40,772 nt of DNA. It comes from Syntrophobacter sp. SbD2 (GTDB taxonomy: Bacteria > Desulfobacterota > Binatia > UBA9968). The notes under the pieces are model-generated. The model did not search any database and had not been told where the DNA came from. It was given only the letters and a program-made list of their open reading frames with translations. The DNA lies in contig CAMDBU010000036.1 of NCBI GenBank assembly GCA_945889495.1, positions 1 to 40,772 of the forward strand. Reading direction: 5' to 3'. The position numbers and the translations under genes are program-made. Positions 7,170 through 33,245 of the stretch are shown here, in pieces. Within the stretch, counting starts at the first letter, position 1. Each line of letters starts with the position of its first letter.

Positions 7170-7460
7170 TTCACCACGAAGACACGAAGGGCACGAAGGT
7201 TTCGGACAAATTCGCTTCCGGCCCTTGGATTCTTCGTGTCTCCTTCGAAAAGACATGTGTGCTGATGATCTGGGCAACGACAAGTCTCTCCGGTTTCGTC
7301 ATACCCGCGAAAGCGGGTATCCAGGTTAATTCGGTGCAGAACAAACCTGGATTCCCGCCTGCGCGGGAATGACGAACTAGATTAGCACTTCCTATGGAGA
7401 GAAAACCTCCATAGTCATTGTCTGTGGACGGACGTAAGCTCACGAACCCTTCGTGGTGAA
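7170..7460 (+). repeat. Outer inverted repeat of the CACGAAG family enclosing a REP pair
   Basis: The 12-base arm TTCACCACGAAG at 7170-7181 is repeated exactly in inverse orientation at 7449-7460. Further CACGAAG-type units follow the left arm up to 7199, and an inverted CTTCGTGTCTCCTTCG stands at 7232-7247. A different palindromic pair (7297-7374) sits inside. The stretch carries no gene. Confidence 0.75.
7297..7374 (+). repeat. Inverted pair of 31-nt REP-like palindromes (REPIN-like, no gene inside)
   Basis: The left unit is 7297-7327 and the right unit is 7344-7374, in opposite orientation with a 16-bp spacer. Each contains a perfect 8-bp stem with a 4-nt loop: ATACCCGC/GCGGGTAT on the left and ATTCCCGC/GCGGGAAT on the right. 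A CCAGGTT tail points inward in both. The stems differ by a compensatory A-T to T-A exchange. The same palindrome flanks the GIY-YIG gene at 30785-31075. Confidence 0.88.
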
Positions 7461-28849: not shown

Positions 28850-28925
28850 CTCGCGCCAAGCTCGCCAAGACCGCAAAGGTAAATTTTTTAAACTTCCTTT
28901 CTTTGCGTCCTTTGCGCGAGATATT
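28850..28925 (+). repeat. CGCAAAG-family inverted repeat overlapping the 3' end of hydantoinase B
   Basis: CTCGCGCCAAGCTCGCCAAG and the following ACCGCAAAGG face CTTTGCGTCCTTTGCGCGAG (from about 28901) in inverse orientation around an A/T-rich centre. The right arm encodes the last residues of hydantoinase B on the minus strand, so the repeat has been absorbed into the gene. Confidence 0.6.
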
Positions 28926-30705
28926 CTTTGTTCCCTCCGAGGCTGCGCCGCAACTCCGCCGTCGCCGCGATATTCAACTGGAATCTCCGTCCGTGCTGCT
29001 CGATCTCCACACCATACTCATCGCGCGCCGCGGCCAACGACACATAGCCCGAGCGCACGTCGGCGAGGACGCGCGCGGGATCGCGCTCGATGGCGTTCCA
29101 AAAGCCGCCGCCGCCGCCGACTTCGATCAAGAACCCGTCGCCTTCATTCAAGCCGACAATGCCCGGGGTCTTGCCGGTTTTCATGGTCTCAGACTCACCG
29201 TCCTTGCGCACCACGGTGAAGCGATTGGCGAGCGCGTCCTTGCCGCCATACAAACCCCAGGGCGGGCACAGCGCCCGCTCCATGGCCGACAGCACGCTGC
29301 CCGGCGACAGCAAGCGAACTTCCTGGGACACGCCGAGGCCACCGCGAAACTTTCCCGGCCCGCCGGAGTCCTGGCGCAGCTTGCGGTAGGAGACGAATAT
29401 CGGCGCCCGCCCCTCGCCCGCTTCCACCGGTGTGTTGTGGGTATCGCCGTCGTTGATGCAAAAGGTCGCGTTTTGGCCATCGCGATCCGACAGCGCGCCC
29501 CAGCCGCCGCCCGACAGCATGGGCGGGAAGTGAAACGACCGGCCGGTCTTGGGATCGAGACCGAAGGTGCGCGGCGCCGCCAAGTCGGCGTGATGGCCGG
29601 CCAGCACGTTGTCCGGACAGGCCTGCGCCAAGGCTTTGAAGATCGTATCCGCCACCGTCATCGGCACGGTCATCCAGGTGCGCACCGGCGCCGGCTTGGT
29701 GGCGCTGACAATGCGCCCCGGCGGCAGATTTATTTTCAACGGCCGGAACGATCCTTCGTTGATCGGCAAGAGTAGCGGCGTGGTGAGAAATTTGAACGCC
29801 ACTTCCGACGCCGAGCGCCCCGCCGTCGCCCCGGAATTATACGGCCCGGCGACCTGCGGACTGACGCCGCTGAGATCGACGGTCATCTCGTCGGCCGTCA
29901 CGGTAACGCGAATCTTGATCGGAATCGGCTTGCCGATGTTGACGCCGTCGTCGTCCATGAACGACTCGGCCAGATATTCGCCATCGGGAATTTTCGCCAC
30001 CGCGGCGCGCGCGAGCTTTTCGCTCTGGTTGAAGATCAGTTCGATCGATTGTTTGAACGTCGCCGCCCCGTAGCGTTCGATCAACCGGCTCACCCGCCGC
30101 TCACCGGTGCGGATCGCGGCGATCTGGGCGCGAAAGTCGCCCATCGCGAAGTGCGGCAGCCGGCAATTGCTACGGATGATCTCGGTGAGCTCCATGTCCT
30201 GCTCGCCGCGCTTGAAGATTTTCACGAAGGGCATCTGCAACCCCTCGGAGAAAATATCCCGCGTGACACTTCCTAATACGCCGCCGACATCCTGCCAGTG
30301 GCCCATGGACGACGAGAACGCGATCAGCTCGCCGTCATGAAAAATCGGCAGCGAGAAAATCATGTGGTTCAAATGGCTGCCCATTACCTGCGGGTCGTTG
30401 GTGAGCAGGATATCGCCGGGGTGAATATTTTCTTTGCCCCAATGGGCGAGCTTGGCCTTGACCGCGTCGGACAGACCGCGAATAAACATCGGCAAGCCGA
30501 GCCCGATGGAGATGGTATTGCCGTCGGCGTCGAACAAGCCGACGGTGAAATCCTCCGCCTCGTAGATGATCATGTTGTAGGCGGTGCGCATGAGATTGGT
30601 CTTCATCTCATCGGTGATCGCGACCACGGAGCTGCGGATCACCTCGGCGGTGAAGGCGTCCACCGCGGCCTCGCAAGACGAGGAATTCACGATTTCAGAT
30701 TCCAT
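28888..30705 (-). CDS. Hydantoinase B/oxoprolinase family protein
   Basis: The 605-residue protein has the HyuB landmarks. AYNMIIYEAEDFTVGLFDADGNTISIG is at about 43-70, GDILLTNDPQVMGSHLNHMIF near 97-117, DVGGVLGSVTRDIFSEGLQMPFVKIF near 140-165, YNSGATAGRSASEVAFKFL near 289-307 and DSGGPGKFRGGLG near 450. With HyuA it forms ATP-dependent hydantoinases, 5-oxoprolinases or acetone/acetophenone carboxylases. Both ends are odd: the ATG lies in an ATTCCAAATT-type repeat, and the last dozen residues (EYLAQRTQRKEV) come from a CGCAAAGG repeat. A start a few codons further in is possible. It is separated from HyuA by the GIY-YIG unit. Confidence 0.92.
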   Translation of the reverse strand: MESEIVNSSSCEAAVDAFTAEVIRSSVVAITDEMKTNLMRTAYNMIIYEAEDFTVGLFDADGNTISIGLGLPMFIRGLSDAVKAKLAHWGKENIHPGDILLTNDPQVMGSHLNHMIFSLPIFHDGELIAFSSSMGHWQDVGGVLGSVTRDIFSEGLQMPFVKIFKRGEQDMELTEIIRSNCRLPHFAMGDFRAQIAAIRTGERRVSRLIERYGAATFKQSIELIFNQSEKLARAAVAKIPDGEYLAESFMDDDGVNIGKPIPIKIRVTVTADEMTVDLSGVSPQVAGPYNSGATAGRSASEVAFKFLTTPLLLPINEGSFRPLKINLPPGRIVSATKPAPVRTWMTVPMTVADTIFKALAQACPDNVLAGHHADLAAPRTFGLDPKTGRSFHFPPMLSGGGWGALSDRDGQNATFCINDGDTHNTPVEAGEGRAPIFVSYRKLRQDSGGPGKFRGGLGVSQEVRLLSPGSVLSAMERALCPPWGLYGGKDALANRFTVVRKDGESETMKTGKTPGIVGLNEGDGFLIEVGGGGGFWNAIERDPARVLADVRSGYVSLAAARDEYGVEIEQHGRRFQLNIAATAELRRSLGGNKEYLAQRTQRKEV

Positions 30706-30744
30706 ATTCCAAATTCACGGATAGCCGGCACACTCTGCCCAATC

Positions 30745-31110
30745 CGTCATTCCCGCGCACGCGGGAATCCAGGTTCAAACCGTCCTAAACGATCTCATCG
30801 CACAAATCTTTCCACTGCGGATTGTTCTCTTCGATCAACTCCAGCTTCCAGGCGCGATTCCATTTCTTCAACTGTTTCTCCCGCGCAATAGCTGCCAGCA
30901 TATCGCCGACTAACTCATAGTAAACCAAACGATGCACTCCGTACTTTTTCGTAAACCCATCAACCGCACCGGATCGATGCTCATGCAACCGTTTCAGCAG
31001 GTCGCTGGTGACACCGATATAAAGTGTGCCGTTTGGTTTACTGGCTAGAATATATACAGCTGGCTGCCTATCCATGACAAACCTGGATTCCCGTTTTCAC
31101 GGGAATGACG
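30745..31110 (+). mobile_element. Candidate mobile unit: GIY-YIG gene bounded by inverted REP-like palindromes
   Basis: The bounding repeats are 30745-30775 and 31080-31110, each 31 nt, in inverse orientation. The stem of the first is ATTCCCGC/GCGGGAAT with a 4-nt loop. The second, read on the minus strand, has ATTCCCGT/ACGGGAAT with a GAAA loop. Both carry the inward CCAGGTT tail. The gene stop is 9 bp from one repeat and its ATG 4 bp from the other, so the unit contains little else. No convincing target duplication is seen. Mobility is an inference. Confidence 0.6.
30785..31075 (-). CDS. GIY-YIG nuclease family protein
   Basis: This 96-residue single-domain nuclease has VYIL (residues 7-10) and LYIG (18-21) as the GIY and YIG strands, the catalytic Arg29 in LLKRLHEHR, a conserved YELV segment near residue 53, and the metal-ligand Glu66 in IAREKQLKKWNRAWK. 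It closes with IEENNPQWKDL, as in the YhbQ-like group. Such proteins cut one or both DNA strands using one metal ion. Upstream of its ATG the sequence reads CCAGGTTTGTC, so the AGG of the repeat tail is the only ribosome binding site candidate. It is inserted between the two hydantoinase genes on their strand. Confidence 0.92.
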   Translation of the reverse strand: MDRQPAVYILASKPNGTLYIGVTSDLLKRLHEHRSGAVDGFTKKYGVHRLVYYELVGDMLAAIAREKQLKKWNRAWKLELIEENNPQWKDLCDEIV

Positions 31111-31187
31111 GACCCAGACACCGACTCGCAATATCTCGCCACTCACGATTCTTTTTATGGAATTTGTAATATGAAATCTGACATTCA

Positions 31188-33245
31188 TCATGCACCGTCT
31201 CCGAGGTACATGATGAGATGCCCATACTCGTTCACCGTCACCCGGTCGCCGGGCTCGACCACCGTGGTCGACGCGGTCTCTTCGATTATCGCTGGGCCGG
31301 AAATAACATTGCCGTGGAGCAGCTGGGCGCGGTCGTAGACTGGCGCTGAGAGCGAGCCGGCGCCGTCGAAGTTGACCGAGCGTTCGCCGCGGCGAGCCGC
31401 GGCTGGCGGCGTGGCGGCGCCTTTGGCGATCTGGGGGAATACCGGTTTGGTCAAGCGGCCGATGGCGGAGACGCGCAGGCTGACGATATCGGCGGACTCT
31501 TCCGGGGCGCTGTGGCTGTAGCGCAGGTCGTGGGCCGCGTCGAAGCGCCGCTTTACTTCAGCGCGGGCCGCTTCGTCGCCGACGTTGGCCGGCATCCCCA
31601 CAGCCACTGCGTGTTCCTGGCCGACGTAGCGCATGTCGGCGGCGCGCTCGAAGGCGATGCGGTCGAGCGCGATGCCGGAGTCGAGTAAGGCCTGGCGCCC
31701 TTCGTCTTCCAGAGCTCTGAACTGCGCTTCCAAATCGCTCATCGCTAGATCGTCCAAGCGCTCGAACAGCGTCTGGACATAGTCGCGGCGCAGGTCGGCC
31801 ATCAGCATACCGAGGGCGGAGAAATGGCCCGGCGCGTTGGGAATGATAATCTTGCCGATGGACAATTCCTTGGCCACCGACGCCGAGTGCAGCGGCCCGC
31901 CGCCGCCGTAAGCAACTAGCGTGAAATCGCGCGGATCGAGACCGCGCTCCAAGGTCACATGGCGCACCGCGTTGGCCATCGCCGAGGTCGCCACTTGCAA
32001 CATGCCAGCGGCGGCGCGCTCCAGCGACACGTTCAAAGGCGCGGCGAGCTTTTCCGCCAATGCCGTTTGCGCCGCGGCGCGGTCCAAGCGCATCTCGCCG
32101 CCGAGAAAATTCTCCGGCGACAAGCGGCCGAGCACGACATTGGCGTCGGTCACCGTCGGTTCGGTGCCGCCGCGGCCGTAACTCGCCGGCCCGGGCTCGG
32201 CGCCGGCGCTCTTGGGGCCGACGTGCAAGCCGCCACCTTCGTCGACAAAGGCGATGCTGCCGCCGCCGGTACCGACATCGACAATGTCCAACACCGGGAT
32301 GCGGATCGCCAAACCTTCGTTGTAGCCGCCAATAAAATAATCCGGCGACAAGCTCGGCTCGCCGCGCCGGATCACGCAGGCCTTGGCCGTGGTCCCGCCC
32401 ATGTCGAAGGCGATGGCAGCATCGAGCTCAAGTAATTCGCATAGCGCCATGGTGCCAACCACGCCGCCCGCTGGACCCGACTCCATCATCTGGATGCACT
32501 GGCGGCGCGCCATCTCGACATCGGACAGGCCGCCGTTAGACTGCATAATCATCAAGCTGCCGGCAAATTTGTTTTGCTTGAGGCGCGCTTCGAGATCGGC
32601 CAAATATTGGCTGACTTTGGGACCGACGTAGGCGTTGGCCGCCACCGTCGAAGTGCGCTCGTACTCGCGATACTCGCGCGATAGTTCATGGGACACGCTG
32701 ACAAACAGTTTGGGATTGGCGGCCAGCAGAACCTCGCGCATGCGTAGCTCATGGGCCGGCGCGCGGTAGGAGTGCAGAAACAGGATCGCCACCGCTTCGA
32801 AGCCTTCTTCCTTGATGATCCGCGCCACCTCGCGCGCCTCGGCGTCATCGAAGGGCGTGCGCACTGAGCCGTCGGCGAGCATGCGCTCGGTGATCTCAAA
32901 AATATCCTCCCGCGGGATCAGCGGCCGGTGCTTGCGAAAGCGCGGATTGAACGATTCGGGCCGGTTGATCCGGCCGATCTCGTAAACATCGCGGAACCCT
33001 TTGGTCGTCACCAGCGCCGTCTTGGCCCCCTTGCGCTCGATCACCGCATTGACGACAACAGTCGAACCGTGGATCAACGTCTCGGTCTCCGGGAAACGCA
33101 CCGAAGCCTTGACCAAGCCATCGAGCACGCCTTTAGCCAATTCATTGGGCGTCGAAAGCGTTTTCGCCAGCGACAAACCGCTCTTGGCCTCATCGAACAC
33201 CACTACGTCGGTGAATGTACCGCCTATGTCAACTGCGACTCTCAA
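31188..33245 (-). CDS. Hydantoinase A/oxoprolinase family protein
   Basis: The protein has 685 residues. It starts at TTG 33245, with GGAGG four bases upstream. It opens with the phosphate-binding MRVAVDIGGTFTDVVVFD of the ASKHA-like HyuA fold. LIHGSTVVVNAVIERKGAKTALVTTKGFRDVYEIGR follows at about 57-92, MESGPAGGVVG near residue 261, AFDMGGTTAKACVI near 282 and DVGTGGGSIAFVD near 320. The family couples ATP hydrolysis to opening of cyclic imides or to carboxylation. It is the probable partner of hydantoinase B downstream; the usual short gap between them is about 480 bp here because of inserted repeats and the nuclease. Confidence 0.93.
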   Translation of the reverse strand: MRVAVDIGGTFTDVVVFDEAKSGLSLAKTLSTPNELAKGVLDGLVKASVRFPETETLIHGSTVVVNAVIERKGAKTALVTTKGFRDVYEIGRINRPESFNPRFRKHRPLIPREDIFEITERMLADGSVRTPFDDAEAREVARIIKEEGFEAVAILFLHSYRAPAHELRMREVLLAANPKLFVSVSHELSREYREYERTSTVAANAYVGPKVSQYLADLEARLKQNKFAGSLMIMQSNGGLSDVEMARRQCIQMMESGPAGGVVGTMALCELLELDAAIAFDMGGTTAKACVIRRGEPSLSPDYFIGGYNEGLAIRIPVLDIVDVGTGGGSIAFVDEGGGLHVGPKSAGAEPGPASYGRGGTEPTVTDANVVLGRLSPENFLGGEMRLDRAAAQTALAEKLAAPLNVSLERAAAGMLQVATSAMANAVRHVTLERGLDPRDFTLVAYGGGGPLHSASVAKELSIGKIIIPNAPGHFSALGMLMADLRRDYVQTLFERLDDLAMSDLEAQFRALEDEGRQALLDSGIALDRIAFERAADMRYVGQEHAVAVGMPANVGDEAARAEVKRRFDAAHDLRYSHSAPEESADIVSLRVSAIGRLTKPVFPQIAKGAATPPAAARRGERSVNFDGAGSLSAPVYDRAQLLHGNVISGPAIIEETASTTVVEPGDRVTVNEYGHLIMYLGDGA

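Follow-up and report, generated by a model that had tools for sequence, protein, structure and literature searches.

Why does a small nuclease gene lie so exactly between two inverted hairpin repeats, inside a pair of hydantoinase genes, and is the enzyme connected with the repeats that frame it? The gene is found on contig G000:C36 of the draft genome of Syntrophobacter sp. SbD2 (5.64 Mb, labelled G000 here), and "the window" below refers to the whole stretch of 40,772 nucleotides that was analysed. The following features are used throughout.

7297-7374: gene-less REPIN-like doublet with palindrome cores at 7301-7320 and 7351-7370; inner and outer ends as in the gene unit
28888-30705, minus strand: hydantoinase B gene, downstream neighbour (Pfam)
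30690-30720 and 31160-31185: AT-rich strings like GGAATATGAAATCTG (also at 2290-2360 of locus L164)
30745-30775, plus strand: CGTC-1 REP hairpin on the 3′ side of the nuclease gene, 8-bp stem and 4-nt loop, -8.0 kcal/mol; CGTC tag 30745-30748, stem-loop 30749-30768, CCAGGTT tail 30769-30775
30785-31075, minus strand: single-domain GIY-YIG nuclease gene, 96 aa, PF01541 with E 7.1e-16
31080-31110, minus strand: inverted CGTC-1 REP hairpin on the 5′ side of the nuclease gene, -7.8 kcal/mol; tail 31080-31086, stem-loop 31087-31106, GACG 31107-31110
31188-33245, minus strand: hydantoinase A gene, upstream neighbour (Pfam)

An inverted-repeat search recovered the pair 30743-30775 / 31080-31112, with arms of 33 nt that are 88% complementary and a spacing of 304 nt. 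When folded, both 31-nt palindromes formed an 8-bp stem with a 4-nt loop, the CGTC overhang pointing outward and the CCAGGTT tail inward. The preliminary description of this DNA had the gene filling the gap between the inverted 31-nt palindromes, apart from spacers of 9 and 4 bp. Its coordinates are exact, and the hydantoinase A-B context that it gave is borne out by the Pfam assignment of the two neighbours. A further inverted repeat of 20 nt lies within the nuclease gene (30919-30938 / 31023-31042, 85% complementary), and the spacers around the hyu genes of G000 and of another genome, G011, repeatedly contain AT-rich strings like GGAATATGAAATCTG, in both orientations.

PF01541 was the only domain that Pfam reported in the protein, which lacks the HUH motif and Y1 domain of RAYT/TnpAREP enzymes. 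Residues Tyr8, Tyr19, Arg29, His33 and Glu66, presumably the catalytic residues of the GIY-YIG domain, are invariant across 50 sequences. The domain and the conserved residues, together with an AlphaFold model of pLDDT 90.8, place the protein in the GIY-YIG superfamily, and the solved folds most like the model are UPF0213 1zg2 (best score), Slx1 and the UvrC N-domain. The protein thus resembles YhbQ/UPF0213 in fold and in being a small single-domain GIY-YIG protein. However, the label "YhbQ-like", under which it was first described, had to be dropped, and membership of YhbQ/UPF0213 was rejected: identity to E. coli YhbQ is 29% over 78 aa, no NCBIfam model scored above its cut-off for the window protein, and none of 29 YhbQ-family genes is framed by repeats. 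A defence family was likewise rejected (one weak partial PADLOC match, E 0.0005), as was a phage family (no PHROGs match at E 0.001). A PDB sequence search returned five chains, of a WD-40 protein and of designed WRAP-T proteins; no stretch passed alone, and we set these matches aside as an artefact.

G000 contains four PF01541 matches, namely the window gene, one gene each on contigs C201 and C128, and a 660-aa open frame. With the window protein, the C128 protein shares 63% identity and the C201 protein 60%, and each therefore represents a distinct lineage. The C201 gene is framed as the window gene is, and the C128 gene sits between doublets of another palindrome, ATTCCGG..CCGGAAT. Comparison of the C201 gene with its counterpart in genome G009 gave dN 0.079 and dS 0.67, which indicates purifying selection. 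Distinct lineages have likewise been described for RAYTs (PMC3116915).

The hairpins themselves belong to a described class. As defined in 2013 by Di Nocera and colleagues (PMC3733652), CGTC-1 REPs, with the Neisseria dRS3 among their members, have a CGTC tag, an 8-bp stem starting with AT, a 4-nt loop and a CCA tail, and they occur as inverted dimers. The window palindromes show each of these elements, with the CGTC tag unpaired. An Rfam family was rejected for them, the only match being a sub-threshold one to mir-980. The core ATTCCCGN6CGGGAAT has 102 exact copies in G000 as against 0 for a reversed control pattern, and in the window, with up to 2 mismatches allowed, 4 core matches stand against 0.47 expected. 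A pattern for inverted doublets that lack a gene but share the inner ends gave 48 matches, which correspond to 42 distinct sites in G000 (control 0). The high copy number and inverted dimers of CGTC-1 REPs are thus both present in this genome.

One doublet was folded (7295-7376), and it formed a single long hairpin (-31.7 kcal/mol, z -9.5), as an inverted REP doublet does in a REPIN. Association with a RAYT, the other mark of a REPIN, is absent: none of the three Y1-transposase (PF01797) genes of G000 has a CGTC REP in the 2.9-3.3 kb surrounding it. The presence of these three genes could still suggest that HUH-type RAYTs move the REPs in trans and that the GIY-YIG gene is a bystander. We consider this very improbable, given the surroundings of the Y1 genes and the tracking of the GIY-YIG gene by repeat number and repeat type described below. 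In addition, PMC3733652 states that CGTC REPs were sought beside RAYTs and other transposases, that the few cases found were judged fortuitous, and that the authors found no dedicated transposase for the superfamily.

We collected relatives of the nuclease with a protein-only scan, using one genome per species. The scan gave at least 573 relatives, of which the best 80 were kept as loci; the taxa in the record titles include Pseudomonadota, Nitrospirota, Planctomycetota, Anaerolineae and candidate phyla, among others. Within this best 80 of at least 573, an inverted repeat scoring at least 13 across the 120-nt flanks was found at 40 of 78 loci, two with short flanks having been dropped, versus 0 of 400 random windows. 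A second count, with separately set gene ends and longer flanks of 150 nt, covered 76 of the same best 80 loci and gave 43, compared with 9 of 433 other open frames, and stable hairpins were present on both flanks at 31 of the 76 versus 8 of the 433. A separate phylum sample gave 18 of 29 nuclease loci with a flank inverted repeat and 9 of 29 with two-sided hairpins, both against 0 of 82 other open frames. As a control, genes of the YhbQ family were taken from 297 genomes of the phylum and scored 0/29 for inverted repeats, for two-sided hairpins and for two-sided tags. The preliminary description had named homologues that mostly lack palindromes as evidence that would count against it; most of the homologues proved to be flanked. 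The nuclease-hairpin pairing is therefore general and not confined to the window.

The same controls bear on the simplest alternative, that these are chance hairpins or ordinary transcription terminators around an ordinary gene. REPs do lie frequently 3′ of genes and may act in RNA, as PMC3733652 notes. As a full explanation, however, this reading is contradicted by the 102 copies against 0 for the reversed pattern and by controls in which the framing is rare or nil, whether these were windows drawn at random, other open frames or genes of the YhbQ family, and we give it almost no credence.

Weaker matches (80-130 bits) presented a different picture. A flank inverted repeat was found at 7 of 20 of these loci versus 0 of 9 control open frames, and perfect hairpins on both flanks at only 1 of 20. 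GTCAT tags, on the other hand, stood on both sides at 17 of 20, where the YhbQ set had 0/29 and the other groups used as controls had 52/1149 and 11/306 windows. Distant relatives (L028, L031, L032 and L238-L257) lie mostly amid other imperfect palindromes that open with the same GTCAT, of the GTCATTGCGAG, GTCATTCTGAG and GTCATTTCGA types, and these types may be further repeat superfamilies with nucleases of their own. Four Pseudomonas loci (L082, L115, L125 and L132) have no inverted repeat across their 120-nt flanks and have one neighbour gene common to all; this sub-group is possibly a domesticated branch. Among seven plasmid-collection loci that were read for flanking repeats, Rhizobium L184 has no evident repeat within 200 nt of the gene and Photobacterium L182 has a repeat downstream only.

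If gene and repeats form a pair, the number of repeats should follow the presence of the gene. At the family level, palindromes number 2-145 in the 9 genomes that have a relative at E <=1e-10; the 16 genomes without one have at most 22, and 10 of these have zero (one-sided Mann-Whitney 0.0003). Among the 297 phylum genomes, 35 have a match of at least 130 bits, and 33 of these carry CGTC-1 REPs (median 26); of the 231 without a match, 45 do (median 0), a difference with a Fisher value of 2.8e-18; the 130-bit and 80-bit classes were fixed after the scores had been seen. The weaker matches show no link to the CGTC-1 pattern, which is found in 7 of their 26 genomes; genomes with fragments only have it in 5 of 5. 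Of 19 families that include genomes with and without the gene, 17 showed a higher REP count in its presence, 1 a lower count and 1 no difference, in a comparison that left aside the window's own family f1 (129 vs 0) and the genomes with weak matches or fragments. Exceptions run in both directions, with at least 10 REPs in 11 of the 231 genomes without a match and no REPs in 2 of the 35 with the gene. For the REP-rich genomes without a match, a 300-bp gene missed in drafts, gene loss or another enzyme are possible reasons. Independence of palindrome number from the gene, which had also been named in advance as counter-evidence, is thus not what these genomes show. The nuclease gene itself is low-copy, with 1-3 matches per genome, and is in this respect unlike a proliferating transposon.

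Repeat type was then compared with nuclease lineage. On a tree of 150 nucleases, with types counted in 11 groups, the repeat types need 43 changes, versus a mean of 77.1 after shuffling, and 0 of 200 shuffles were as low; this tree is built on few columns, leaves many forks open, and tests clustering, not cause. The nearest relative from another genome carried the same repeat type for 104 of 126 nucleases (shuffled mean 42.6, maximum 59, 1000 shuffles). This test dropped 10 nucleases without a type and 14 classed as "other", both of which the tree test keeps as groups. For nucleases with a type other than the commonest, agreement was found in 42 of 57. Two types also coexist inside single genomes. 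In G013, one nuclease goes with TTCCCG repeats and the other with TTCTGA repeats, each agreeing with its nearest relatives elsewhere, and G000 and G009 each hold TTCCCG and TTCCGG nucleases. Host background alone therefore does not explain the association. In one counter-case from G014, the type assigned to locus L026 differs from that of its nearest relatives. As far as sequence comparison goes, these results support the view that nucleases of different lineages each recognise a particular tagged hairpin.

Comparison of related loci revealed sites with and without the unit. The C201 unit stands at the matching place in G000, G009 and G007, and is absent there, REPs included, from G008 (same genus) and G017. 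In Azospirillum lipoferum 4B a unit with a REP doublet on either side lies between sufB and sufC; of five relatives fetched, four were aligned (A. ramasamyi, A. oryzae, B510 and A. thermophilum), and in these the nuclease gene and CGTC REPs are both missing between sufB and sufC. Sphingobium TomMM7A has REP-gene-REP between fnrL and a response regulator, and six further records have the nuclease gene at this place. Here Sphingobium TomTYG64 and TYG74 hold one CGTC-tagged REP instead, and TYG72 and TYG65 only different, untagged palindromes. Finally, in Sinorhizobium C101 the gene and a REP cluster together take up about 840 nt; at the matching place S. meliloti Ak57, which is 95% identical, holds a single imperfect REP-like palindrome in about 35 nt. 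Gene-less doublets also vary: one G000 doublet is absent at the matching place in G009, G010 and G011, with other DNA there in G010, and for a second doublet, in locus L172, the alignment to G009 and G011 stops short of the doublet. At the empty sites compared, the spacers are too diverged to show a target-site duplication or a base-exact junction.

For the window's own site, no hyuB-hyuA stretch read in relatives carries the unit; these stretches have diverged spacers, or an additional hyuB paralogue separates hyuB from hyuA. That paralogue lies between the two genes in G011 (L164, G011:C13) and on a separate contig in G000 (L170, G000:C91), and the operon has therefore probably been rearranged. 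The preliminary description had taken the unit for an insertion and expected empty hyuA-hyuB sites in relatives. Filled and empty sites at related loci speak for an insertion, and the unit is indeed absent from the stretches read, but gene order differs, no simple empty site was found in them, and the window's own empty state is not base-exact. Conserved synteny across distant genomes, which would have weighed against an insertion, was not encountered: a neighbour gene is shared by only 33 of 3160 locus pairs among the best 80 of at least 573 relatives, judged on at most 3 kb per side, which undercounts sharing.

Sites with a single REP invite a homing explanation, in which the nuclease cuts an existing REP and repair copies the gene in; the REP would then be the target and the flanking REPs its two halves. 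GIY-YIG homing endonucleases are known and share the catalytic domain family PF01541 with the window gene, which differs from them as a stand-alone 96-aa open frame between hairpins, with no intron or intein noted beside it. The single tagged REP in Sphingobium TomTYG64 and TYG74 and the imperfect palindrome in S. meliloti Ak57 fit such a course, although recombination between the two flanking copies could equally leave one REP. The empty sites in G008 and G017 have no REP, however, the four Azospirillum relatives have no CGTC REP, Sphingobium TYG72 and TYG65 hold just their untagged palindromes, and gene-less doublets are left unexplained. On this evidence we judge homing improbable.

A host function has a somewhat stronger claim. 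The GIY-YIG family has a Neisseria member, Ssn, which, according to a 2025 paper in Nature Communications, reportedly cuts single-stranded NTS repeats and affects transformation. A relative 64.5% identical to the window protein, probably Ssn, is encoded in N. gonorrhoeae amid CGTC-1/dRS3-type repeats. Our unit would then share with Ssn/NTS the GIY-YIG superfamily, a repeated sequence said to be cut as a single strand, and a location amid repeats. The nuclease might accordingly be a site-specific single-strand nuclease of this kind, with the repeats as cut sites for DNA uptake, recombination or self-marking and spread by some other route. A host function would fit the low number of genes per genome and the purifying selection. 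On the other side, the framing of the gene and the block-wise presence or absence of units and doublets need a spreading route, and a pure host role leaves unexplained why repeat number follows the gene within families. We regard this reading as unlikely, yet worth keeping in view. The work on Ssn reportedly also differs in its emphasis on transformation and biotechnology; the REPtron-like framing, the filled and empty sites and the cross-phylum CGTC link come from the present analysis.

We lean instead, with some reserve, towards a REPtron-like pair, in which the GIY-YIG nuclease is framed by outward-tagged CGTC-1 REPs and would serve dozens of gene-less doublets too. The sequences show that the gene is framed and that such framing is general, that repeat type covaries with nuclease lineage, that repeat number is tied to the gene, and that units are present or absent at orthologous sites. 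RAYT/TnpAREP REPtrons and REPINs are described in similar terms (PMC3116915, PMC8266576): a low-copy nuclease gene by REPs, high-copy gene-less inverted doublets, repeat numbers tied to the gene, and co-evolution of enzyme and repeat. In vitro, TnpAREP, the RAYT of E. coli, cleaves its REP in single-stranded form (PMC8266576). The differences lie in the HUH tyrosine fold and chemistry of RAYTs, to which GIY-YIG is unrelated, and in the tag, which is GTAG for RAYTs and CGTC or GTCAT here. The idea that a small nuclease plays a RAYT-like part thus stands with respect to REP-flanked enzyme gene, linked abundance and co-evolution, and falls short in that the HUH motif and a GTAG-tagged cognate REP are absent. 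The unit works like a REPtron yet is no RAYT.

The most likely interpretation is a RAYT/REPIN-like pair with GIY-YIG chemistry replacing the HUH enzyme, with hairpin cleavage and active mobility as its inferred activities. The nuclease would recognise the tagged hairpin of its own type, probably in single-stranded form at forks or during DNA uptake, and would cut beside it. GIY-YIG enzymes cleave by hydrolysis, and the joining step must thus be supplied by the host, whose repair might join or copy the cut ends. Doublets, and occasionally the gene unit, could in this way arrive at new sites, and the GIY-YIG enzyme would have for CGTC REPs the role ascribed to HUH-type RAYTs for GTAG REPs. A broader proposal, to which we attach a little less than even weight, is that this GIY-YIG family is a dedicated mobiliser of CGTC REPs and of the GTCAT-tagged GTCATTGCGAG, GTCATTCTGAG and GTCATTTCGA palindromes in several phyla, that is, a hairpin-based mobile system without a HUH, DDE, serine or tyrosine transposase, parallel to RAYT/REPIN.

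CGTC repeats still lack an enzyme known to handle them or bring about their spread, and the nuclease gene is so far the strongest candidate. CGTC REPs, dRS3 among them, were left without a known enzyme in 2013 (PMC3733652); a framing, co-varying GIY-YIG nuclease gene sets the present case apart and makes the question directly testable. Should the nuclease move CGTC REPs, a second hairpin-repeat system with unrelated chemistry would have arisen in parallel to RAYT/REPIN. Should it only cut them, many bacterial genomes would hold built-in cognate nick sites, with effects on DNA uptake and genome stability. The lineage-specific nuclease-repeat pairs also amount to a catalogue of hairpin-specific nucleases. 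A search of the open-licence literature, preprints excluded, for a GIY-YIG nuclease linked to REPINs, dRS3, REP palindromes or palindrome transposition returned nothing relevant, and neither Ssn, among the papers listed, nor GIY-YIG enzymes in Neisseria transformation yielded anything further. For Neisseria, the pairing of a GIY-YIG enzyme with repeats is in part already known; what looks new within that literature is its assignment to CGTC REPs in several phyla, together with the co-evolution and the filled and empty sites.

Several minor observations were made on the same genomes. A stretch of about 148 nt (L172 10469-10616; G000:C115:19968-20115) recurs at or near the ends of many G000 contigs with 98-100% identity and is probably a high-copy repeat that breaks the assembly; a similar stretch in L177 has an 84% match in G014. 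A repeat of about 125 nt (L172 3340-3465), separate from the REPs, has dozens of matches in G000, G009 and G010. Lastly, homologues of the nuclease with one internal stop were found at G127:C218, G156:C4, G199:C197, G146:C107, G067:C120 and others, and at L071 and L128; these represent gene decay in place.
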